Source: Sulfurimonas sp. HSL-3221 (lineage in GTDB: Bacteria; Campylobacterota; Campylobacteria; Campylobacterales; Sulfurimonadaceae). From it: 64,000 nucleotides of DNA. The stretch is from NCBI RefSeq assembly GCF_021044585.1, contig NZ_CP087998.1:1178001-1242000 (forward strand). The letters are read 5' to 3'. The notes beneath the pieces were generated by a model. The model did not search any database, had not been told where the DNA came from, and saw only the letters and a program-made list of their open reading frames with translations. Each line of letters starts with the position of its first letter. The first letter of the stretch is position 1. Position numbers and translations under genes: made by a program. Positions 18,344-31,291 of this stretch are shown here, piece after piece.

Positions 18344-18371
18344 TTGACCTGTTTGATAAAAATGTTATACT
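18344..18371 (+). promoter_or_regulatory. sigma70-type promoter of the guanidine operon
   Basis: TTGACC (18344-18349) and TATACT (18366-18371) are separated by 16 bases, the best two-box promoter in the window. The predicted start near 18378 leaves a leader of about 185 bases before the first gene, which contains the guanidine-I aptamer. Confidence 0.72.
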
Positions 18372-18408: not shown

Positions 18409-18424
18409 ACCACTGTCCACAATA

Positions 18425-18516
18425 GGCGGCTAGGGTTCCGGCGGGTTACCGTGTCTGGTCCGAGAGCCGTCGACCTCTTGAGTAGGGGTTACACGGAGGG
18501 ATAAAAGCCCGGGAGG
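18425..18516 (+). promoter_or_regulatory. guanidine-I riboswitch (ykkC class)
   Basis: Conserved ykkC aptamer segments occur in order: CTAGGGTTCCG (18430-18440), TCTGGTCCGAGAG (18454-18466), ACACGG (18491-18496) and GGGATAAAAGCCCGGGAG (18498-18515). This RNA class binds free guanidinium and switches on guanidine export or degradation genes. The first gene, an ABC substrate-binding protein, starts 49 bases later with GGAG at 18555-18558. No clear intrinsic terminator with a U-run is seen, so the mode of control is undetermined. Confidence 0.93.
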
Positions 18517-18564
18517 TTACAACCTCTTGGCGTGTTTATTCCATTACCTACTCAGGAGATTTAC

Positions 18565-19635
18565 ATGAAATCTATTTTCAAATCTACCTCAAAACTCTTA
18601 GTTGCCGCTACGATGGTCATGGGCCTTGGTGCCTCTTCTCTGATGGCGGAAGTCAAAGATAAGTTTCAGGTCTCCTGGACGATCTATGTCGGATGGATGC
18701 CCTGGGATTACGCCCAGCAAAAAGGGATCATCGACAAGTGGGCCAAAAAATACGGCATCGAGATCGAGATGGTCCAGGTCAACGACTACATCGAATCAAT
18801 CAACCAATATACTGCAGGAAAATTTGACGGCTGTCTGATGACAAACATGGATGCCCTCACGATTCCGGCTGCCGGCGGCGTCGACTCTACAGCGGTCATC
18901 ATGGGTGACTACTCCAACGGGAACGACGGTATCCTCCTTAAAAACAAGAAAAAGCTTTCCGACATCAAAGGCCAGACGGTCAACCTCGTCGAACTCTCTG
19001 TCTCACACTACCTGCTGGCACGTGCGCTTGAAACGGTCGGCCTGAGCGAGAAAGACGTCAAGGTCCTCAACACCTCCGACGCCGATATGGTCGCGGCATG
19101 GGGTACGAAAGACGTCACGGCGATGACAACATGGAACCCGCAGCTCAGCGAGATCATGGCCAACAACAAAGATGCGAACCTTGTCTTCGACTCCAGCAAG
19201 ACGCCGGGCGAGATTATCGATATGCTCGTCATCAACACGGAAACCCTCAAAGACAACCCGAAACTCGCCAAAGCGCTGACCGGTGCATGGTTTGAGACGA
19301 TGGCACTGATGAAAAAGGGCGACGAAGCGGCACTGACTTTTATGGCGCAGGCTTCCGGTACGGACCTCGCGGGCTACAAGAGCCAGCTTGACTCCACGAT
19401 GATGTTCTACGAGCCCTCTGACCTGCTGACGTTTACAACCAGCGACGCCATTCCGGCGACGATGAAAAAAGTCAGCGAATTCTCCTTTGACCACGGCATC
19501 CTCGGCGAAGGTGCTCCTGACGCCGAGTTCATTGGTATGGCGTTCCCGGGCGGCAAAACGTTCGGTGATCCGAAAAACATCAAGCTCCGCTTCGACGACA
19601 CCTATGTCAAAATGGCTGCCGAAGGGAAACTGTAA
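18565..19635 (+). CDS. ABC transporter substrate-binding protein, guanidine/urea-carboxylase-associated type
   Basis: The protein has 356 residues with an N-terminal signal peptide (MKSIFKSTSKLLVAATMVMGLGASSLMA). The mature part is NitT/TauT-like: FQVSWTIYVGWMPWDYAQQKGIIDKWAKKYGIEIEMVQVNDYIESINQYTAGKFDGC, then ALTIPAAGGVDSTAVIMGDYSNGNDGI. This is the periplasmic binding protein family found beside 'urea' carboxylases. Under a guanidine riboswitch the ligand is most likely guanidine or a derivative. GGAG lies 6 bases before the ATG. First gene of the operon. Confidence 0.9.
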   Translation: MKSIFKSTSKLLVAATMVMGLGASSLMAEVKDKFQVSWTIYVGWMPWDYAQQKGIIDKWAKKYGIEIEMVQVNDYIESINQYTAGKFDGCLMTNMDALTIPAAGGVDSTAVIMGDYSNGNDGILLKNKKKLSDIKGQTVNLVELSVSHYLLARALETVGLSEKDVKVLNTSDADMVAAWGTKDVTAMTTWNPQLSEIMANNKDANLVFDSSKTPGEIIDMLVINTETLKDNPKLAKALTGAWFETMALMKKGDEAALTFMAQASGTDLAGYKSQLDSTMMFYEPSDLLTFTTSDAIPATMKKVSEFSFDHGILGEGAPDAEFIGMAFPGGKTFGDPKNIKLRFDDTYVKMAAEGKL

Positions 19636-19644
19636 GGTCCTCTC

Positions 19645-20469
19645 ATGAAACGTTTAATGAACCTCAGACCGTCGAAACAGTCCCTCTTTTTCCTGGGGCT
19701 GCTGCCGTTTGTGCTGATCGTGCTCCTCTACCTGGGGGCGTCGGAAGTCCGCCTGGCGGAAAATCCGAACGACAAACTGCTGCCCTCCATGAGCAGCTTT
19801 GCCGAAGCGATCGACCGCATGGCGTTTGAACCGAGCAAGCGTACCGGCGAATACCTCTTCGTCGAAGATACGGTCGCCTCGCTCGAGCGCCTCGGCCTCG
19901 GTGTGCTCATCAGCGCAGTGCTCGCACTGCTGATGGGGATCCCGCTGGGGTTCATTCCCTTCGTTCGTGCGGGCCTTTCGCCCTTCGTCGCGGCCTTTTC
20001 CATGGTGCCGCCAATGGCTATTTTGCCCATCTTATTCATCATTTTCGGTATGGGTGAGCTGGCTAAAGTAGCACTGATCGTCATCGGGGTGACCCCGCTG
20101 ATCGTCCGCGACCTGCAGCAGCGGGTCATGGAGATCCCGGCGGAGCAGCTGATCAAGGCGCAGACCCTGGGCGGATCGTCCTGGACGATCGTCCTGCGCG
20201 TCGTGCTGCCGCAGATCTTTCCGCGCCTGCTTGATGCGGTGCGCCTCACCATGGGGACGGCGTGGATCTTCCTGATCTCCGCCGAGGCAATTTCGGCCAC
20301 GGAAGGGCTGGGGTACCGGATCTTCTTGGTACGCCGCTACCTGTCGATGGATGTGATCCTGCCGTATGTTGCCTGGATCACCTTCCTCGCCTTTTTGTTT
20401 GATTACCTGCTCAAGCGGTTCACTTACAAGGTGTTCCCGTGGTATGACGCAGGGAAGGAGCAGTCATGA
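19645..20469 (+). CDS. ABC transporter permease (NitT/TauT type)
   Basis: The 274 residues have about six membrane helices and the BPD_transp_1 EAA-type loop (LQQRVMEIPAEQLIKAQTLGGSSWTIVLRVVLPQIFPRLLDAVRLTMGTAWIFLISAEAI). An unusual periplasmic insertion follows helix 1 (residues 35-75). It starts 9 bases after the binding protein and overlaps the ATPase gene by four bases. Confidence 0.92.
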   Translation: MKRLMNLRPSKQSLFFLGLLPFVLIVLLYLGASEVRLAENPNDKLLPSMSSFAEAIDRMAFEPSKRTGEYLFVEDTVASLERLGLGVLISAVLALLMGIPLGFIPFVRAGLSPFVAAFSMVPPMAILPILFIIFGMGELAKVALIVIGVTPLIVRDLQQRVMEIPAEQLIKAQTLGGSSWTIVLRVVLPQIFPRLLDAVRLTMGTAWIFLISAEAISATEGLGYRIFLVRRYLSMDVILPYVAWITFLAFLFDYLLKRFTYKVFPWYDAGKEQS

Positions 20470-21230
20470 GCCTCGTCACCGTTAAAAACCTCTGGAAAGA
20501 GTACGGCGACAACGTCGTGCTGGAAAACCTGAGCCTGAACATCGAGGCGGGCGAATTCTGTACGCTCGTCGGACCGTCGGGTTGCGGGAAAACAACCTTT
20601 CTGAAGATGCTGCTGGGGCAGGAGAACCCGACCCGCGGCACCTTTTTGCTTGACGGGAAGCCTTTCCCGGAAGAGCCGGGCGTCGACCGTGGGATCGTCT
20701 TCCAGCGCTATTCGGTCTTCTCGCACCTGAGTGTGTTGAAAAACGTCATGCTCGGGATCGAGTTTGAAAAGGCTCCGCTCTCAGGTCGCCTTTTCGGCCA
20801 GGCCCGCAGGGCGGCGGAAGCCGAAGCGATGGCGATGCTCGAAGCCGTCGGCCTCGGCGACGCGGCGCACAAGTACCCCAGCGAGCTCTCCGGGGGGATG
20901 CAGCAGCGTCTCTCTATTGCGCAATCCTTGGTGAAAAAGCCGAAGATCCTGCTGCTGGACGAACCCTTCGGGGCCCTCGACCCTGGGATCCGCGCCGATA
21001 TGCACGCGCTGATCCTTGACCTCTGGGAAAAGAACAACCTCACCGTCGTCATGGTCACCCATGACCTCCACGAGGGGTTCTACCTGGGAACGCGGCTGCT
21101 GGTCTTCGACAAGGTCCGTCACGACCCGCACGCACCCAACGCCTACGGGGCGCGCATCACCTACGACATCCCCGTCGGGGATACGCGCGAATCCGTACTT
21201 GAAGAGATCGATAAAACCATCAAGGTTTGA
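20466..21230 (+). CDS. ABC transporter ATP-binding protein (NitT/TauT type)
   Basis: The 254-residue ATPase has Walker A (VGPSGCGKTTF, near 38-48), Q-loop (GIVFQRYSVFSHLSV), signature LSGGMQQRLSIAQSL and Walker B (ILLLDEPFGALDP). With the two preceding genes it completes a guanidine-type importer. The first guanidine-II element begins within 30 bases of its stop. Confidence 0.93.
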   Translation: MSLVTVKNLWKEYGDNVVLENLSLNIEAGEFCTLVGPSGCGKTTFLKMLLGQENPTRGTFLLDGKPFPEEPGVDRGIVFQRYSVFSHLSVLKNVMLGIEFEKAPLSGRLFGQARRAAEAEAMAMLEAVGLGDAAHKYPSELSGGMQQRLSIAQSLVKKPKILLLDEPFGALDPGIRADMHALILDLWEKNNLTVVMVTHDLHEGFYLGTRLLVFDKVRHDPHAPNAYGARITYDIPVGDTRESVLEEIDKTIKV

Positions 21231-21239
21231 TCCAGACCG

Positions 21240-21302
21240 GGAAGAGCAGATCTTCCAGTGCCGCAGGACGACTTGCGGCATCATGACGCGCGGGACGGCC
21301 CG
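21240..21302 (+). promoter_or_regulatory. guanidine-II (mini-ykkC) riboswitch, copy 1
   Basis: Two hairpins with ACGR tetraloops: stem 21259-21267/21272-21280 with loop ACGA (21268-21271), nine pairs including one G-U; and stem 21291-21294/21299-21302 (CGGG/CCCG) with loop ACGG. This pair is the defining feature of guanidine-II RNAs. An extra hairpin, GGAAGA-N5-TCTTCC (21240-21256), precedes them and is kept in copy 2. GAAGGAG at 21311-21317 and the GTG at 21323 follow directly, so control of translation is the likely mode. Confidence 0.87.
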
Positions 21303-21322
21303 AAAACTTTGAAGGAGAAACA

Positions 21323-22060
21323 GTGATTACTGAACACAAAAACCTGAAACCAGAATCCATCATCCTCGACGAGGTGCTCCCGGGCGGTGCACGCTGGTCG
21401 AAGATCATTAAGCGCGGCGACAAGATCCGCATCACGACCAAGGACGGGCTGGGCACCCTCAGCGCGATGTTCTACAACGCCGACAACACCTCGGAGCGTT
21501 TCAACTCCGCCGACACGGTCAAACTTCAGCATAACGCCTACTTCTGCAAAGGGCGGGTCTTCTATTCCGAGCAGGGCCGCGTACTGCTTTCCATTACGGA
21601 AGATACGACTGACGGTCTCTTCGACGCCATCGGCGGCATCAGCAACCCGCGCATCGTCGCGAAAAACTTCGGCGAGGGCGATTTCGAACATATCCGCAAC
21701 CGTTATTACAAAAGCGACCGGGAGAACTTCCTCGTCGAACTGGGCAAATACGGCATGGGAAAACGTGACATGCTTCAGGCGGTCAACTTCTTCAGACGGG
21801 TCGACGTCAAAGAGGGCAATAAGCTGGCGCTTTCCGACAAGCGGCCGCAGCCGCAGAGCTACATCGAACTGCGCGCGGAGATGAATGTCCTGCTGGTGCT
21901 CTCCAACACGCCGCATGTGATGGAAAAGGGAACGTACAACCCGAGCGACGTCCAGCTGACGCTGTTCAAAGCGGCCCCGGTCACCGAAGATGATTACTGC
22001 ATGAACTTCAGTATCCAGTCCCAACGTGCGTTCAAGAACAACGCACGTTACTTTGCCTGA
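21323..22060 (+). CDS. carboxyguanidine deiminase subunit, larger (UAAP / DUF1989 family)
   Basis: The 245-residue member of the 'urea amidolyase-associated protein' family is one of the two subunits (CgdA/CgdB) that convert carboxyguanidine to allophanate and ammonia. It aligns with the next gene product along its length (GTLSAMFYNADNTSERFNSADTV against QAVDTLFYNANDHEERYSANDTI). It lacks the Cys/His metal ligands of that partner (SITEDTTDGLFDAIGGISN in place of TITDDTCGNHDTLGGHCSA), so it is probably the non-catalytic subunit. GTG start with strong GAAGGAG. I have not assigned A or B. Confidence 0.88.
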   Translation: MITEHKNLKPESIILDEVLPGGARWSKIIKRGDKIRITTKDGLGTLSAMFYNADNTSERFNSADTVKLQHNAYFCKGRVFYSEQGRVLLSITEDTTDGLFDAIGGISNPRIVAKNFGEGDFEHIRNRYYKSDRENFLVELGKYGMGKRDMLQAVNFFRRVDVKEGNKLALSDKRPQPQSYIELRAEMNVLLVLSNTPHVMEKGTYNPSDVQLTLFKAAPVTEDDYCMNFSIQSQRAFKNNARYFA

Positions 22061-22070
22061 GGAGCGCGTG

Positions 22071-22691
22071 ATGAAAAGAGATATCGAAACAGCCGTATAC
22101 AACCACAAACTGCCGGCCGGCGTGCCATGGAGCTATGTCGTGAAAAAAGGCCAGACGCTGCGTATCGTCGACCTTGAAGGGTGCCAGGCCGTCGACACGC
22201 TCTTTTACAATGCCAATGATCACGAAGAGCGCTACTCGGCCAACGATACGATCCGCGAACAGGGGAGTATCTTCGTCACGACGGGCACACAGCTGATCTC
22301 CACCGACGACAACGTCATGATGACGATCACCGACGATACCTGCGGCAACCACGACACCCTGGGCGGGCACTGCAGCGCGGAGAGCAACACCGTACGCTAC
22401 GGCCACGATACAAAGTACATGCACAGCTGCCGCGACAACTATCTGTTCGAGATCGGCGAGCGTGAGATGGACCCGCGGGACCTCACGAACAACATCAACT
22501 TCTTCATGAACGTGCCGATCGAGGAGAACGGTTTCCTGATCATCGTCGACGGTATCTCCAAGCCGGGCGACTATGTCGACATGAAAGCCGAGATGGACAC
22601 GCTGGTGCTGATCTCGAACTGTCCGCAGCTCAACAACCCGTGCAACGCGTTCAACCCGTCGCCGATCCAGCTGGTCATCTGGGACGACTAA
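22071..22691 (+). CDS. carboxyguanidine deiminase subunit, smaller, metal-binding (UAAP / DUF1989 family)
   Basis: The 206-residue product starts at MKRDIETAVYNHKLPAG after GAGGAG; the longer frame from 22026 overlaps the previous gene. Candidate metal ligands are Cys91, His94, His100, Cys101 and Cys120 (DDTCGNHDTLGGHC and HSCRDNY). Known partner enzymes hydrolyse carboxyguanidine to allophanate. With the preceding subunit it forms the deiminase step between carboxylase and allophanate hydrolase. Confidence 0.9.
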   Translation: MKRDIETAVYNHKLPAGVPWSYVVKKGQTLRIVDLEGCQAVDTLFYNANDHEERYSANDTIREQGSIFVTTGTQLISTDDNVMMTITDDTCGNHDTLGGHCSAESNTVRYGHDTKYMHSCRDNYLFEIGEREMDPRDLTNNINFFMNVPIEENGFLIIVDGISKPGDYVDMKAEMDTLVLISNCPQLNNPCNAFNPSPIQLVIWDD

Positions 22692-22695
22692 GACG

Positions 22696-23709
22696 ATGAA
22701 AAAGGCGACACGGCTTCTGCGCTTCGAAGATGCATGGCTGCCGAACCTGGCGGCATGGGCCTATATGCTGGGGGCCTACGTGGGCGGATTCGCCGCCATC
22801 CTGGCCGACGCCTTGTGGCTGAATGCGGCGGGGGTACTCCTGCTGGCACACGGTATGGTCATCGCCGCCTATTTCATCCACGAGTGCGCCCACGATTCGC
22901 TCTTCAGGCTGCCGATCAACAACCACCGTTTCGGAGAGCTTCTGCTCTGGATCTGCGGCGCGTCGTACAGCGATTACGAGGCGATACGGATGAAGCATGT
23001 CCGCCACCACTTGGACCGTGCCGATATCGTTTCGTTCGATTTCCGCACCCGCCTGCCGCACTATCCGAAACTGCTCAAGACGATCCAGGTACTGGAGTGG
23101 TTCTACATTCCCGCCCTCGAGATCATGATGCACGCCCTGGTCGTCATTCTGCCGTTCATGAAGGAGAGCCGCCGCTATCTGCGCCGCCGCGTCGTCACGG
23201 TACTGGTACTGCGCATCGCTTTCTTTGCCGCACTGGCGTCGATTGCGCCGAAGGTGCTGCTGCTTTACCCGCTGGCGTACATGATCTTCCTGACGGTCAT
23301 GCGTTTCATGGATGTGCACCAGCACACCTACGATGTGCATGAAACCCTGGATTTTTCGCGCGAAGCGCAAGTGAAACAGTATGACCGCGCCTTCGAATCG
23401 CGCAATACCTATTCGAACCTGATCTCTGAGAAATACCCGTGGCTGAACCTGCTGGTCCTCAATTTCGCGTACCACAACGTTCACCATGATCAGCAGATCC
23501 AGCCGTGGTACCGGCTGCCGGGACTGCACGCCAAGCTCTACGGCGAAGACAGGACGCAGGTCCTGGTGTTCTCCGACCTGGCGCGCAGTTACCACCGCTA
23601 CCGTGTCGGCCGGGTCCTCAACGGAGACCCGGCCGACCTTGACGTCAAGCGTGACGGGGGCCGCACCTTTATCGGTGTGGACGGCGTCTCGTTCCTGACG
23701 GCGCACTGA
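22696..23709 (+). CDS. membrane di-iron fatty-acid-desaturase-fold enzyme of unknown substrate
   Basis: The 337 residues have two early membrane helices (about 17-58), further hydrophobic segments near 137-155 and 168-203, and the histidine boxes of the desaturase/hydroxylase superfamily: H62-ECA-H66, H101-VR-HH105, H208-Q-H210 and H260-NV-HH264. The fold uses two irons and O2 to desaturate or hydroxylate. It starts 4 bases after the deiminase subunit and is followed after 11 bases by the MBL gene, so it is firmly inside the guanidine operon. The guanidine pathway as known needs no oxygenase. N-dealkylation of an alkylguanidine is one possible role (inference). Confidence 0.88.
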   Translation: MKKATRLLRFEDAWLPNLAAWAYMLGAYVGGFAAILADALWLNAAGVLLLAHGMVIAAYFIHECAHDSLFRLPINNHRFGELLLWICGASYSDYEAIRMKHVRHHLDRADIVSFDFRTRLPHYPKLLKTIQVLEWFYIPALEIMMHALVVILPFMKESRRYLRRRVVTVLVLRIAFFAALASIAPKVLLLYPLAYMIFLTVMRFMDVHQHTYDVHETLDFSREAQVKQYDRAFESRNTYSNLISEKYPWLNLLVLNFAYHNVHHDQQIQPWYRLPGLHAKLYGEDRTQVLVFSDLARSYHRYRVGRVLNGDPADLDVKRDGGRTFIGVDGVSFLTAH

Positions 23710-23720
23710 AGGAGTCCAAC

Positions 23721-24503
23721 ATGACACAGGTAAAGAAGTTCTGGCCCATCCTGACGGGAACCCACCGTTACGAGAAGACGCTCTCAACCCGCAACCACGG
23801 CTCAGGGGTGATCATCGACGCCCCGATCCTCGCCTACCTGATCGAGACGTCCAACGGCCGCATCCTTTACGATGTGGGATGCGACTACACGAAGATCGCC
23901 GACCCGGTTCTACGCAAGCAGTTCTACGAGCATGAAGGCTTCCCCTTCGGTCCGCCGCAGATGACCGAGGAGCAGCGCCTGCCCAACCGCCTGGCGGAGC
24001 TGGGACTGCAGAAAGAGGATATCGACGTCGTCTTCTGCGGGCACTTGCATTTCGATCACGCCGGCGGGGTCTGCGAATTCTGCGGTGCGGAAGTGCACGT
24101 GCATGAAAAAGAGCTTGAGGCGGCGCGTGAACCGGCGGACGAAGCCTACTTCAAAGAGGACTTCGACTGTCCGGTGAACTGGCGCGTTTACAAGGGCGAA
24201 TACGACCTCGTCCCCGGCGTCCGCGCCATCGAGACGCCGGGCCATACGGCCGGCCACATGTCAATGATGATCGAGCTGCCCAAGGGCTCCCCGATCCTCC
24301 TTGCCGGCGACGCGGCGGACCTGCGGGAGAACCTGGAGCGGGAGATCGCGCCGGGGCTCTGCTACCGCGACGACGAAACGCAGGCGCTGGAGAGCATCCG
24401 CAAGCTCAAACGGCTCGCCCTTGAAACGGGCGCGGATCTGTGGCCCAACCACGACATGGCCTTTTTCGAGAGCAAGAACCGCTTTCCGAAATTTTTCGAA
24501 TAA
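23721..24503 (+). CDS. MBL-fold metallohydrolase (AHL-lactonase-like)
   Basis: The 260-residue metallo-beta-lactamase-fold hydrolase has a complete dinuclear zinc set: H108-x-H110-x-D112-H113 (HLHFDHAGG), H175 (TPGHTAGH), D197 (LAGDAAD) and H244 (WPNHDM). The overall arrangement resembles N-acyl-homoserine lactonases, but the substrate is not predictable. AAGGAG precedes the ATG. It is the last gene before the second guanidine-II element and is not part of the known guanidine route. Confidence 0.88.
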
Positions 24504-24508
24504 CGCCG

Positions 24509-24571
24509 GGAAGAGCGTTTCTTCCAGTGCCTCGGGACGGCCTGCGGCATTCAGACGACCGGGACGGCCCG
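24509..24571 (+). promoter_or_regulatory. guanidine-II (mini-ykkC) riboswitch, copy 2
   Basis: The same arrangement as copy 1: accessory hairpin GGAAGA-N5-TCTTCC (24509-24525); stem 24528-24536/24541-24549 with loop ACGG (one mismatch and one G-U pair); and stem 24560-24563/24568-24571 (CGGG/CCCG) with loop ACGG. The linker between the two ACGR hairpins is 10 bases, as in copy 1. AAGGA at 24587-24591 and the carboxylase ATG at 24599 follow. It begins 6 bases after the MBL stop. Confidence 0.85.
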
Positions 24572-24598
24572 AAAAGTACTATTTTTAAGGACCTGAAA

Positions 24599-27500
24599 AT
24601 GTTTAGCAAAGTTTTGATCGCCAACCGCGGAGAGATCGCCTGCCGCGTCATCCGTACGCTCAAGAAGATGGGCATAGGCTCCGTCGCCGTCTATACCGGC
24701 GCCGATACCGACTCCCTGCATGTCAGCCTCGCCGACGAAGCCTACTATATCGGCCACGGTGTGGCTTCCGAAAGCTATCTCGACGCGGCAAAGATCCTTG
24801 ATATTGCAAAACAGAGCGGTGCCGAAGCGGTGCACCCGGGCTACGGCTTCCTGAGCGAAAATGCGGCCTTTGCCAGCGCCTGCGAGGCGGCCGGGATCGC
24901 CTTTATCGGTCCGCGTACGGAGCACATGGAGAAGTTCGGCCTCAAGCACACGGCCCGCGCCCTGGCCGAGGCGAACAACGTTCCCCTCCTGCCGGGCTCC
25001 TCACTGCTGTCCGACCTTGACGAAGCGAAAAGCGAAGCGGCGCGCATCGGCTACCCGGTAATGCTCAAAAGTACCGCCGGCGGCGGCGGGATCGGGATGC
25101 AGCTCTGTTTCGATGAAGCGCAGCTGCTTAGTGCCTACGACTCCGTCAAGCGCCTCAGTGAAAACAACTTCTCTGACGGCGGGATGTTCCTGGAAAAATA
25201 CGTCGCACATGCACGCCACATCGAAGTACAGGTCTTCGGCGACGGCGAGGGCTTTGTGGCAACTTTAGGTGACCGTGACTGTTCCGTACAGCGCCGTAAC
25301 CAGAAGGTGATCGAGGAGACCCCGGCTCCCGGGATTTCCGATGAGACGCGCGAAGCGCTCTACACAGCCGCCAGAGACCTGACGGCCTCCGTCGCCTACC
25401 GCTCCGCCGGGACGGTCGAGTTCGTCTACGATACGGACAGCGGCGCATTCTATTTCCTCGAAGTCAATACCCGCCTGCAGGTCGAACACGGCATTACCGA
25501 AGAGGTGACCGGCGTCGACCTCGTCGAGTGGATGATCCGCACGGCCGCCGGCGAGAACCCGGCGCTGTACGACTACGTCCATGCCCCGCAGGGACACGCC
25601 ATCCAGGTGCGCGTCTATGCCGAAGACCCGATGAAGAACTTCCAGCCCAGCTCAGGGGTCCTGACGAACGTCGCCTTCGCAGAAGGGATCCGCTGCGACA
25701 CCTTCATTGAGACGGGCCTCGAAGTCTCCTCCTTCTACGACCCGATGATCGCCAAGCTTATCGTCAAGGGCAGTGACCGCAGTGATGCGCTTGCCAAGAT
25801 CGGCACGGCCATTGCAGAGACACGCATCGACGGGATCGAGACGAACCTCCGCTACCTCGGCGCCATCGTCGCTTCCGATGTTTTTGAACAGGGCAAACAG
25901 ACGACGAAGTACCTTGACGGCTTCAGCTTTACGCCAAACAGTATCGACGTGCTGCGCCCGGGAACACAGACGACGATCCAGGACTACCCGGGCCGCAGCG
26001 GCTACTGGGATATCGGCGTTCCGCCTTCCGGCCCCTTCGACGGTTTCAGCTTCCGCTACGCCAACCGTCTTGTCGGCAACAGCGAAGCGGCGGCGGGCCT
26101 CGAGATTGCCATCGCCGGGCCGACGCTGCGCTTCAATACCGACAGCGTCGTCGCGCTCTGCGGCGCGCAGATCGACGCCTCTATCGACAACGAGCCGGTG
26201 GGCATGAACGAAGCGCTCACGGTCAAGGCCGGCAGCGTGCTCAAACTGAAAAAAGTCCATAACGAAGGCTTCCGTACCTACCTGGCCGTGCGCGGCGGGT
26301 TCGACGTACCCGAGTACCTCGGCAGCCGCTCGACCTTTACCCTTGGGCAGTTCGGCGGCCACGCGGGGCGCACCCTCGTTCCCGGCGATGTGCTGCACAT
26401 CGACACGATGACGGAGAGCGACGCCGCAACCGCACCGGCTACGCCGCGCCACGGATATGAGAACCGCTGGGAGATCGGCGTGCTCTACGGACCGCATGGC
26501 GCCCCGGATTTCTTCACCGACGACGATATCGAAACCTTCTTTGCGACGGAGTGGGAGATCCACTACAACTCCAACCGCACCGGCGTGCGCCTGATCGGCC
26601 CCAAACCGCAGTGGGCACGTACGGACGGCGGCGAAGCGGGGCTGCACCCCTCCAATATCCACGACAATGCCTACGCCATCGGTGCCGTCGACTTCACCGG
26701 CGACATGCCGGTCATCCTCGGCCCCGACGGTCCGAGCCTCGGCGGTTTCGTCTGCCCGGTGACGATCGTAAGCGCCGAGCTGTGGAAGATGGGCCAGCTT
26801 CGGGCGGGCGACAAGGTGAAGTTCGTCCCGGTGGAACACGACACGGCGATGGAAATGCTGGGAGCGCAGGAGGAGGCGATCGCATCGCTCTCCACCTACG
26901 ATGAGCGCGCTTTCCTTGCACCGAAACCGATCGGATCGCCGATCCTCTTCGCCGACGAGGCGAAGGGCGACCTTCCGGCCATGGTTATCCGCCAGTCCGG
27001 CGACGCGAACCTGCTCGTCGAATACGGGGAGATGCAGCTCGACATCGAACTGCGCTTCCGCGCCCATGTGCTGATGGAGGCGATGAAAGAGGAGTCCTTC
27101 GAGGGCGTCACGGACATCACTCCGGGCATCCGCTCGCTGCAAGTCCATTTCGACCCGAAAGTCTGTGACCGGGCTGCACTGATTGAACGCCTCAAGGAGA
27201 TTGAACTGACCCTGCCGTCCATCGACGACATCGAGGTGCCGGCGCGCGTCGTACACCTGCCGCTCTCCTGGGACGACGAGTCGACCCGCGTCGCCATCGA
27301 CAAGTACATGAAGACGGTCCGCCCCGATGCGCCATGGTGTCCTTCGAATATCGAATTCATCCGCCGCATCAACGGCCTGGACTCTATCGACGAGGTCAAG
27401 AAGATCGTCTTCGGCGCCAACTACCTTGTCATGGGCCTTGGCGACGTCTATCTGGGTGCACCCGTCGCGACGCCGCTCGACCCGCGCCACCGCCTTGTCA

Positions 27501-28201
27501 CGACCAAGTACAACCCGGCGCGTACCTGGACCCCGGAGAACGCTGTCGGTATCGGCGGGGCATACATGTGTGTCTACGGGATGGAAGGTCCCGGCGGCTA
27601 CCAGTTCGTCGGTAGGACGGTGCAGATGTGGAACCGCCACCGCCAGACGGCGGATTTCAAAGAGGGCAAGCCGTGGCTGCTGCGCTTCTTCGACCAGATC
27701 AAGTTCTACGAGGTGAGCGCCGAGGAGCTACACAAAATGCGCGAGGATTTCCCCCGCGGCCGCATGAAGCTCGAAGTCGAAGAGACGACCTTCAGCCTCA
27801 AGGCATATAAAGAATTCCTCTCCGAGAACAAGGAGAGCATCAAAGCCTTTAAAACGACGCAGCAGGCCGCCTTCGATGAAGAACGCGCCATGTGGGAACG
27901 CACGGGGCTGGCGAACTTCACCAGCGAGAGCGGCGAAGTGAAAGCGGAGACGATGGAGGTGATCGAGCTGGGCGAACACGACGAAGCGGTTGAATCCCCG
28001 GTTCAGGGAAGCCTCTGGAAGGTGATGGCGAAACTCGGCGACACGGTCGAGGAGGGCGAAGTGCTCGCCATCGCCGAATCGATGAAGATGGAAGTCGACA
28101 TCGAAGCCCCCGAAGCGGGCAAGATCGTCAAGGTGCTCTGCCACGAGGGTGAGAGCGTGCACGCGGGCAAGATGCTCTTTGTTATCGAACCGCAGGAGTA
28201 G
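24599..28201 (+). CDS. biotin-dependent guanidine carboxylase (urea carboxylase family)
   Basis: The 1200-residue enzyme starts at [18 protein letters not shown] after AAGGA; the frame is open upstream to 24440 but that part overlaps the riboswitch and MBL gene. Domains in order: biotin carboxylase (1-450; ATP-grasp [19 protein letters not shown]...[13 protein letters not shown]), KipA/AHS2-like (about 455-760; [27 protein letters not shown]), KipI/AHS1-like (about 775-1060; ends [27 protein letters not shown]), and biotinyl domain (1120-1200; ESMKMEV, biotinyl Lys near 1163). It carboxylates guanidine or urea with bicarbonate and ATP. Guanidine is preferred here because of the three guanidine riboswitches and both deiminase subunits. 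Confidence 0.93.
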
Positions 28202-28209
28202 GATTGATT

Positions 28210-29061
28210 ATGGAACTGCAGCGATATAAAACCATGTGGGGCTTTGAGGGGGATTTCGAGAGCGCCTGTGCCGAAGCCCTTGCGGCGGGGTTCGACGGGA
28301 TCGAAGGGCCGGCGCCCGAATCTTCCTCCCAGCGTGCCTACTGGAAATCGTGTCTTGAAAAGTACGGCCTTCACTACATCGCCGAGGCGGTGACCGGGGG
28401 CGATTACGTCCCGCGGCGCGATCTCGGTGTCGAAGGGCACCTGGACGACCTCAATGCGATCCTTGCACGCAGTGCGGAACTCTCCCCGCGTTTTGTCACC
28501 TGCATCGGCGGACTGGACGCCTGGAGCGAGGCGGAGAGCCTGCGCTTTTTCAAAGAGGGGATGAAACTGGCGGAGCGCTACGGCCTGCAGATTAGTTTCG
28601 AGACCCACCGCAGCCGAAGCCTCTTTAACCCCTGGGTGACGCGCCGGATCGTCGATGCACTGCCGGAGATCTCGTTGACGGCCGACATCAGCCACTGGTG
28701 CGTCGTCTGCGAACGGCAGATGGACAGTGAACGAGAGACGATCGATGCGATCGCGCCGAACGTGAAACATATCCATGCCCGCGTCGGTTACGACCAGGGG
28801 CCGCAGGTCCCGCACCCGGCGGCACCGGAGTACGCTTATGCCCTGGAGGCGCACCAGGCGGCCTGGGAACGTTTCTGGGAGGCGCAGTACCACCGCGGAT
28901 TCGCGATTTCGACGATGACGCCGGAGTTCGGCCCCGACGGTTATCTGCACACGCTCCCCTTTACCCAGGCCCCGGTGGCCGATCTGTGGGAACTTAACCA
29001 GTGGATGGGCGAAACGGAACGGCTCCATTTTCAGCGCCATATGGCAAAGGCGGCGGCATGA
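28210..29061 (+). CDS. sugar-phosphate isomerase/epimerase-like TIM barrel
   Basis: The protein has 283 residues from MELQRYKTMWGFEGDFESAC; AGGA lies 6 bases before this ATG, which is preferred over the TTG at 28204. It belongs to the xylose-isomerase-like (AP endonuclease 2) barrel superfamily with metal residues intact: ISFETHRSR (Glu), LTADISHWCV (Asp/His), VKHIHARVGYDQG (His) and MTPEFGPDGY (Glu). The reaction is unknown. It begins 8 bases after the carboxylase and overlaps the transporter gene by four bases, so it is an integral operon member with no known guanidine role. Confidence 0.85.
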   Translation: MELQRYKTMWGFEGDFESACAEALAAGFDGIEGPAPESSSQRAYWKSCLEKYGLHYIAEAVTGGDYVPRRDLGVEGHLDDLNAILARSAELSPRFVTCIGGLDAWSEAESLRFFKEGMKLAERYGLQISFETHRSRSLFNPWVTRRIVDALPEISLTADISHWCVVCERQMDSERETIDAIAPNVKHIHARVGYDQGPQVPHPAAPEYAYALEAHQAAWERFWEAQYHRGFAISTMTPEFGPDGYLHTLPFTQAPVADLWELNQWMGETERLHFQRHMAKAAA

Positions 29062-29942
29062 GATCGCACCTTCCCGTCGTCGTACTGCTCGGCGCGTCGG
29101 TCCTTTGGGGGCTTACCTGGCTGCCGCTTAAACAGATCAACGGCATGGGTATTGACGGTATCGCGCTGACGATGGGTGCCTACGGCATCCTCGCCCTCCT
29201 GCTGACCCCGGTGCTCATGGCGCAGTTTTCACAATGGCGCGAACACAAGCGGGCCATGGGCATGATCCTGCTTTTCGGCGGGGGTGCGAATCTTGCGTTT
29301 ACCTATGCCCTGATCAACGGCGAGGTGATCCGTGTGATGGTACTTTTCTACCTGCTGCCCGTCTGGGGCGTGCTCGGCGGGAAGTTCTTCCTGCGCGAAG
29401 GCGTCGACCTCTGGCGCTGGCTCGGTGCCGCCCTGGCGGTCACGGGTGCCTTCGTCATTCTCGGCGGGTTCGACGCCCTCGGCGGCGCACCGTCATGGAT
29501 CGACCTGATCGCGCTGCTCTCGGGCCTGCTCTTTGCGATGAATAACCTTGTCTTCCGCGCGGCGGCAGCGGTCCCGGTCGCTTCGAAGATCACGGTGATG
29601 TTCTACGGCTGCCTGATCCTGGCCGGCGCGCTGCTCGGCCTGGGCGTAGAACAGCTCCCCTATGACCTGGCTCCCGAAGCGTGGCTTGCCCTTGCGGCAT
29701 ACGCGGTGCTGTGGCTGCTGTTGGCCAATATCGGTTCACAGTGGGGCGTGACGCATATGGAAGCGGGGCGCTCCTCCATCATTATTATCATGGAGCTGAT
29801 CACCGCCGTCATCTCCGCAACGCTGATCGCGGGAGAGCGGATGGACGCCATGGAAATGATCGGCGGCGTGCTGATACTCGCGGCGGCGCTGATCGAAGCG
29901 CTGCGTACCAAAGAAGACGATCTCCCCGAGACGACGATATAA
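29058..29942 (+). CDS. EamA/DMT-family transporter
   Basis: The 294 residues have about ten membrane helices in two EamA repeats (LLGASVLWGLTWLPLKQ...; LIALLSGLLFAMNNLVFRAAA...; second repeat ending EAGRSSIIIIMELITAVISATLIAGERMDAMEMIGGVLILAAALI). The ATG overlaps the TIM-barrel stop. The substrate is unknown. Guanidine exporters under ykkC control are usually SMR (Gdx) proteins, of the same superfamily but half the size, so an efflux or metabolite-exchange role is conceivable. Confidence 0.88.
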   Translation: MRSHLPVVVLLGASVLWGLTWLPLKQINGMGIDGIALTMGAYGILALLLTPVLMAQFSQWREHKRAMGMILLFGGGANLAFTYALINGEVIRVMVLFYLLPVWGVLGGKFFLREGVDLWRWLGAALAVTGAFVILGGFDALGGAPSWIDLIALLSGLLFAMNNLVFRAAAAVPVASKITVMFYGCLILAGALLGLGVEQLPYDLAPEAWLALAAYAVLWLLLANIGSQWGVTHMEAGRSSIIIIMELITAVISATLIAGERMDAMEMIGGVLILAAALIEALRTKEDDLPETTI

Positions 29943-29956
29943 AAAGGATATAGATT

Positions 29957-31291
29957 ATGACGATATCACAACTTTTGAACGATTATAAAAACGGGACAAC
30001 AACCCCGCGCGACGTCATGGCGCAGATCCGTGCACGGATCGAGGCGAATGCGGAAAACCCTATCTTTATCCATGCGCTGAACGAGGCGGAGATTGAGCCC
30101 TATCTTGAACGTCTCGAAGGGATGGACCCCGATGCCCTGCCGCTCTACGGCATCCCTTTCGCGATCAAGGACAATATCGACCTCGCCGGCATCCCGACGA
30201 CGGCCGCTTGTCCGGCATTCAGTTACGTCCCGGAAGCCTCGGCCTTCGTCGTCGCTCAGCTGATCGAAGCGGGGGCGATTCCCGTCGGCAAGACGAACCT
30301 CGACCAGTTCGCGACGGGGCTCGTCGGGACGCGTTCGCCCTACGGCGCCTGCCGCAACAGCATCGACCCCGCTTACATCTCCGGCGGTTCCAGTTCGGGG
30401 AGCGCCATCAGCGTCGCTCTGGAGATGGCGGCCTTCTCCCTGGGGACCGACACGGCGGGATCGGGTCGCGTCCCGGCGGCCTTTAACAACCTTGTGGGCG
30501 TCAAGCCCTCCAAGGGGGTGCTGAGCACCTCCGGTGTCGTACCGGCGTGCCGAAGCCTTGACTGCGTTTCCATCTTTGCCGTCAACACCGAGGACGCCAA
30601 AGCGGTCTTTGACATCGCATGCGCCTTTGACGCCGCGGACCCCTATAGCCGCAAGATGCCGCAGTCAGCGGGTGCAGCGGAAAAAACGATGCGCTTTGCC
30701 GTGCCGCTCCCTTCCCAGCTGAAGTTCTTTGGAGACAGCGAGGCGGAGGCGCTCTTCAACGCGGCGGTAGCCCGCTTCGAATCCATGGGGTATACGGCGG
30801 TCGAAACGGATTTCTCGCCGATGCTCGACGCGGCGAACCTGCTCTATTCGGGCCCCTGGGTCGCCGAGCGTTATATCGCGACGAAACAGATTATGGACGA
30901 AACGCCTGAGCAGGTACTGGACGTGACGCGTTCTATCATTGAGCAGGGACGTGACAAGAGCGCGGAGGAGTACTTCAATGCCGAATACCGTCTCAAAGCC
31001 TACAAGCGCCACTCCGAAGAGATACTCGAGGGGACGGATTTCGCCCTGACCCCGACGACGGGGACCATCTACACCATCGAGGCGATCAACGCCGACCCGG
31101 TGCAGCTGAATACGAACCTCGGCTACTACACCAATTTTATGAACCTGCTTGACTTCGCCGCCTACGCGGTACCGGCCGGGTTCCGCCCCAACGGGCTCCC
31201 CTTCGGCGTCACGCTCTTCGGCGACGCCTTTGACGACCGCCGTCTGATGGACGTCGGCGAAGCTTTTGTTGCGGAGGCGCCCCGTGGCTGA
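29957..31291 (+). CDS. atzF: allophanate hydrolase, amidase domain
   Basis: The 444-residue amidase-signature enzyme has catalytic Lys71 (GIPFAIKDNIDLAG), the serine loop ISGGSSSGSA (142-150) and nucleophile Ser169 in TDTAGSGRVPAAF. It hydrolyses allophanate to ammonia and CO2, the last pathway step. It stops short of the usual C-terminal domain of AtzF proteins of about 600 residues; that domain is encoded separately by the next gene, which overlaps it by eight bases in another frame. Confidence 0.92.
   Translation: MTISQLLNDYKNGTTTPRDVMAQIRARIEANAENPIFIHALNEAEIEPYLERLEGMDPDALPLYGIPFAIKDNIDLAGIPTTAACPAFSYVPEASAFVVAQLIEAGAIPVGKTNLDQFATGLVGTRSPYGACRNSIDPAYISGGSSSGSAISVALEMAAFSLGTDTAGSGRVPAAFNNLVGVKPSKGVLSTSGVVPACRSLDCVSIFAVNTEDAKAVFDIACAFDAADPYSRKMPQSAGAAEKTMRFAVPLPSQLKFFGDSEAEALFNAAVARFESMGYTAVETDFSPMLDAANLLYSGPWVAERYIATKQIMDETPEQVLDVTRSIIEQGRDKSAEEYFNAEYRLKAYKRHSEEILEGTDFALTPTTGTIYTIEAINADPVQLNTNLGYYTNFMNLLDFAAYAVPAGFRPNGLPFGVTLFGDAFDDRRLMDVGEAFVAEAPRG

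Follow-up and report, generated by a model that had tools for sequence, protein, structure and literature searches.

What are the two small hairpins that lie directly before cgdA in a guanidine operon of this genome, and what do they regulate? We analyzed them within a 64 kb stretch of DNA (the window) and in related genomes. Judged by its sequence, the element at positions 21259-21302 (+ strand) is a guanidine-II (mini-ykkC) riboswitch, an identity supported by the Rfam covariance model, by covariation across relatives and by the gene context. We hold with high confidence the fuller reading, in which this riboswitch would raise the translation of cgdA as the middle one of three guanidine sensors on one transcript. 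Taken as a riboswitch alone, it adds a further example to an already known class.

The guanidine-II element before cgdA

The P1 hairpin (TGCCGCAGG-ACGA-CTTGCGGCA, 21259-21280, + strand) has nine pairs, one of them G-U, and an ACGA loop; a linker of 10 nt (TCATGACGCG, 21281-21290, + strand) leads to the P2 hairpin (CGGG-ACGG-CCCG, 21291-21302, + strand), which has four pairs and an ACGG loop. The Shine-Dalgarno sequence of cgdA, GAAGGAG (21311-21317, + strand), lies 8 nt 3' of P2, close by the element, and is followed by the GTG start codon at 21323. All these parts had been described in the initial annotation, from the nine-pair P1 with its ACGA loop, the 10-base linker and the CGGG/CCCG stem of P2 with its ACGG loop to the GAAGGAG and GTG behind them, and they were found in the sequence base for base. 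Its span of 21240-21302 was right for 21259-21302; the letters from 21240 to 21256 form a separate hairpin outside the known motif.

Comparison with the mini-ykkC covariance model, which had been proposed as a check, was carried out using cmscan and gave a match to RF01068 at 21260-21302; its 35.4 bits exceed the gathering score of 32, and E is 0.0022 when all families and the full 64 kb are taken into account. The window element thus scores over the cut-off of the family, with which it shares two ACGR-loop hairpins closed by G-C pairs, a short linker and a position adjoining the ribosome binding site of guanidine genes. It differs in a linker at the short end, 10 nt compared with the usual 13 nt of most class II members (PMC5486947), which is nevertheless within the published range of 7-40 nt (PMC7544219), and in an additional hairpin that is located 3 nt 5' of P1 in the lineage of the window. 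Moreover, folding of the + strand at this place was better than that of shuffled sequences (z -2.6).

To study covariation, we aligned 19 class II copies taken from two groups of relatives. The known structure fitted them with 95% of cells paired, and 10 of the 13 pairs had changed on both sides (8/9 in P1, 2/4 in P2), a result that none of 500 shuffles approached in any respect measured; with the partner shifted by one to three columns, pairing fell to 33-48%. A lack of covariation in related genomes, which the initial annotation had named as evidence that would count against it, was thus not observed. The ACGR loops (ACGA and ACGG in the window copy) and the closing G-C pair of both hairpins were invariant in the 19 relatives. 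A lineage covariance model (R1) built from these aligned copies gave 38-51 bits for copies unseen in its building, among which the cgdA copy of G025 and those of G177, G183 and L095-L102 reached 43-51 bits. Weak matches of the model 5' of a desaturase gene in loci L059 and L060 (12 bits) lie at the end of cgdB and were treated as chance.

That the element represents chance hairpins or a CRISPR-type repeat is extremely improbable. An Rfam match to CRISPR-DR23 does overlap it, but at 25 bits this is far below the cut-off of 45 for that family, and the two-hairpin pattern of the class (GGACGRCY, 5-30 nt, GGGACGRCCC), which occurs twice in the window, was found in 0 of 100 dinucleotide shuffles. 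This shuffle test and the covariation refute both identities, covariation and gene context being decisive.

The additional hairpin, which we call P0, has the stem GGAAGA/TCTTCC at 21240-21256 (+ strand), just 5' of P1 and outside the Rfam motif; the same stem is present at 24509-24525 (+ strand), before a second class II copy described below. Among 17 leaders of the phylum, 14 have a hairpin of at least five pairs within 2-4 nt 5' of P1, with 4.7 expected from shuffles, and the stem sequences vary (GGAAGA/TCTTCC, TGGGGT/ACCCCA, GAGAA/TTCTC). P0 was not seen in gammaproteobacterial class II copies.

Three guanidine sensors in an operon of eleven genes

The operon consists of 11 genes on the + strand and holds three guanidine sensors, one of class I and two of class II. 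It begins with the binding protein (18565-19635), permease (19645-20469) and ATPase (20466-21230) of an ABC importer, which are followed by the carboxyguanidine deiminase subunit genes cgdA (21323-22060, GTG start; TIGR03425, DUF1989) and cgdB (22071-22691; TIGR03424, DUF1989), a desaturase-like membrane di-iron protein with three histidine boxes (22696-23709; PF00487) and an MBL-fold hydrolase related to AHL lactonases and 4-pyridoxolactonase (23721-24503; PF00753). Further downstream are guanidine carboxylase, annotated as urea carboxylase (24599-28201; TIGR02712), a xylose-isomerase-like TIM barrel protein (28210-29061; PF01261), a DMT-type permease named from its sequence character, with homologues in the same place in relatives (29058-29942), and allophanate hydrolase (29957-31291; TIGR02713). 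This content amounts to the full guanidine carboxylase route, and the proposal that carboxyguanidine deiminase genes follow the element is borne out by the TIGR families of cgdA and cgdB; together with the Rfam match and the covariation, this context also upholds the class originally assigned to it.

A genome search located exactly two guanidine-II places in the genome of the window. The second copy (24527-24573, + strand), before the guanidine carboxylase gene, has a P1 at 24528-24549 with one T-C mismatch and a P2 at 24560-24571; owing to this mismatch its Rfam match (24529-24571) reaches 29 bits, below the cut-off of 32, and the lineage model R1 gives it 53.5 bits. The Rfam match ends 28 nt 5' of the carboxylase ATG. 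At the head of the operon lies a guanidine-I (ykkC) riboswitch (18419-18517, + strand; RF00442, 89.3 bits, gathering score 63), the sole copy in the genome. The initial annotation, which pictured one element, was therefore correct for copy 1 and incomplete, having missed the second class II copy and, in its entry on this element, leaving the class I riboswitch unmentioned.

Intergenic distances range from -4 to 14 nt, except for those that precede cgdA (92 nt) and the carboxylase gene (95 nt); the two gaps of more than 15 nt in the operon are exactly the two class II leaders. The natural reading is that of three blocks: class I alone would govern the importer, copy 1 the genes cgdA-cgdB-desaturase-MBL, and copy 2 the genes from carboxylase to allophanate hydrolase. 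A promoter-like site resembling the consensus (TTGACC, 16 nt, TATACT, with an extended -10; 18344-18371, + strand) is present 5' of guanidine-I, having 10/12 matches and being the best of 4 in the region, with 3.6 expected by chance. A terminator-like hairpin with a nine-pair stem followed by CGTGTTTATT (18509-18530, + strand) overlaps the 3' end of the guanidine-I aptamer, one of 13 such sites found where 11.6 are expected. Since both scans give about chance numbers, these two sites are only hints. The promoter-consensus scan revealed no promoter-like site near either class II copy.

Published class II riboswitches bind guanidinium at both loops, P1 and P2 kiss, and translation goes up (PMC5486947, PMC7544219, PMC12186494). 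The motif, covariation, positions and conserved layout of copy 1 are observed in the sequences compared here; by analogy with the published members it would also share their ligand, their kissing loops, their ON direction and their translational level. Guanidinium at both ACGR loops would then lock P1 and P2 as a kissing-loop pair, which would allow more translation of cgdA from the Shine-Dalgarno sequence downstream, and the cgdB, desaturase-like and MBL genes, whose gaps are 4-11 nt, would probably rise with cgdA via coupled translation. Guanidine-I at the head would gate transcription of the operon, copy 1 would gate cgdA-cgdB-desaturase-MBL and copy 2 carboxylase-TIM-DMT-allophanate hydrolase; we infer both the coupling within blocks and the single transcript.

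Masking of the Shine-Dalgarno sequence in the ligand-free state is the weakest step of this mechanism. Thermodynamic folding of 17 leaders revealed no conserved partner that would mask it, and its mean unpaired probability was 0.74 in copy 1 and from 0.17 to 0.90 across the 17. The 3' arm of P0 was considered as such a partner and rejected: some pairs can form in copies 1 and 2, and it would not work with a P0 of the GGGGT type (G025, G010).

In a separate comparison, a block at 23788-24690 comprising the MBL gene and the copy 2 leader showed 56-83% identity between genomes G000/G027 and G010/G036, with flanks near 90%, and copy 2 of G000/G027 is similar to copy 1. This suggests a replacement, or a conversion between the two class II leaders.

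Distribution of copy 1 and the accessory genes

A carboxylase at least 77% identical to that of the window was found in 16 of 200 genomes of the same family, and a class II copy lies directly 5' of it in 16/16. None was detected before the carboxylase in two operons checked from a more distant 60% clade, and in the one operon of that clade that was searched with the Rfam models class I comes first, as it does in every operon searched in this way. According to the lineage model, class II occurs in 24/397 genomes of the phylum, which may be Campylobacterota to judge from gene content and a PdxJ match. A guanidine-II element at L104 8223-8269 (G496) stands apart, the nearest 20 kb being free of the genes of the window operon. 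Class I at the head with class II before the carboxylase is thus the rule, and the carboxylase copy is the ordinary one.

The unusual copy is that before cgdA, present in 6 of 25 operons examined: those of four genomes of the same genus as the window, of G025 (another genus) and of G545 (another family), the carboxylase of the latter being 92% identical to that of the window and closer than those of other genera of the window's own family. All six operons also have the desaturase-like gene, together with an MBL-fold hydrolase gene; the copy is present in 6/7 operons with that gene, G177 being the only exception, and in 0/18 without it. Fisher's test on these 25 related operons gave p 4e-5, a value that overstates the support because the operons are related by descent and probably also by transfer.

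One might regard copy 1 as a decaying or neutral duplicate of the carboxylase copy that no longer regulates cgdA, as its lack in most operons of the phylum could suggest. This is very unlikely, as copy 1 has a higher Rfam score than copy 2 (35.4 vs 29 bits), its loops and adjacent pairs are intact in 6/6 genomes from three genera and two families, and its position before the start codon has been kept. In a second alternative, the main ligand of copy 1 would be a substituted guanidine, for example methylguanidine, on which the desaturase-MBL pair would act. In Vreelandella, class II binds guanidine (93 uM) and methylguanidine (83 uM) equally well, its class I does not bind methylguanidine (PMC12508155), and the restriction of copy 1 to operons with the desaturase gene would fit as well. 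However, its loops and pocket-forming bases are ordinary, equal to those of copy 2 and of operons without the pair, so no altered specificity is visible; furthermore, the association reflects few independent events, since the operons share ancestry and some have passed from one lineage to another. We consider this alternative unlikely.

Relatives of the desaturase-like protein with 54-67% identity were found in sulfur-oxidising Gammaproteobacteria, where the MBL, TIM barrel and DMT permease genes come after its gene in nearly all cases, a set often located beside a guanidine carboxylase operon. In four gammaproteobacterial loci (L021, L022, L023 and L034) a guanidine-II element over the Rfam cut-off lies directly 5' of the desaturase gene; the gene set would thus constitute an independent unit under guanidine control. 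All 12 relatives compared retain the di-iron histidine boxes (H62/H66, H101/H104/H105, H260/H263/H264) unchanged, and all nine compared for the MBL protein retain its metal motif HxHxDH; the closest proteins to the MBL protein are AHL lactonases and 4-pyridoxolactonase. A search of solved structures by sequence returned no match for the desaturase-like and TIM-barrel proteins.

By analogy with the mgdH/mgdL genes of methylguanidine breakdown, we infer that the set may free guanidine from a substituted or cyclic guanidine. As a tentative proposal, which we find plausible while rating it somewhat below an even chance, copy 1 would mark an undescribed guanidine-yielding module consisting of a desaturase-type membrane di-iron oxygenase and an MBL hydrolase, often with the TIM barrel protein and the DMT permease, that would release guanidine from a cyclic or N-substituted precursor and so supply the carboxylase route. 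Such a module would be a non-homologous counterpart of mgdH/mgdL, having gained class II control in two ways, by a second copy before cgdA here and, in Thiomicrorhabdus and its relatives, by a copy immediately 5' of the desaturase gene. A search of the open-access literature found no published link between such a desaturase and a guanidine riboswitch, and the accessory pair is a concrete enzyme candidate for the poorly known source of bacterial guanidine.

Comparison with published guanidine operons

For Klebsiella, Raoultella and Vreelandella, a layout has been published in which class I stands first and class II precedes the carboxylase (PMC12186494, PMC12508155). In Klebsiella michiganensis, Raoultella terrigena and Erwinia rhapontici (PMC12186494), as in the window, class I precedes the importer and carboxyguanidine deiminase genes and class II precedes carboxylase and allophanate hydrolase; what the window operon has in addition is four accessory genes and a second class II element, in front of cgdA. 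The mgdH/mgdL methylguanidine operon of Vreelandella boliviensis (PMC12508155) likewise starts with class I and carries class II in front of the carboxylase gene, and it too includes a pair of accessory genes, which encode an oxygenase-type enzyme and a partner. In that operon, however, a 2-oxoglutarate/Fe(II) dioxygenase and a lyase are encoded between gca and atzF, whereas in the window the two genes that separate cgdB from gca encode an unrelated desaturase-type membrane di-iron protein and an MBL-fold hydrolase, and a second class II copy is present. The accessory pair, being PF00487 and PF00753 proteins, falls outside the mgdH/mgdL type of module, although it may work in a like manner.

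The presence of class I and class II in one operon is thus already published; what deserves further attention is the arrangement of three sensors, along with the gene set under class II control. The open-access literature yielded no operon described as having two class II copies, a supplementary mention elsewhere being possible. A survey of tandem riboswitches has no tandem guanidine arrangements (PMC9481103), and its scoring would not have covered the window case, in which the copies would belong to different leaders of a single transcript. If the layout works as drawn, the same small ligand would be read three times, by two unrelated RNA folds and at two levels, which would offer a natural setting in which to study the benefit of repeated sensing; double control has been named an open subject by the authors of the Vreelandella study (PMC12508155). 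As regards the number of sensors, a second guanidine-I was observed near the operon in two relatives, at L062 16175-16273 (G016) and at L073 17089-17181 (G062).
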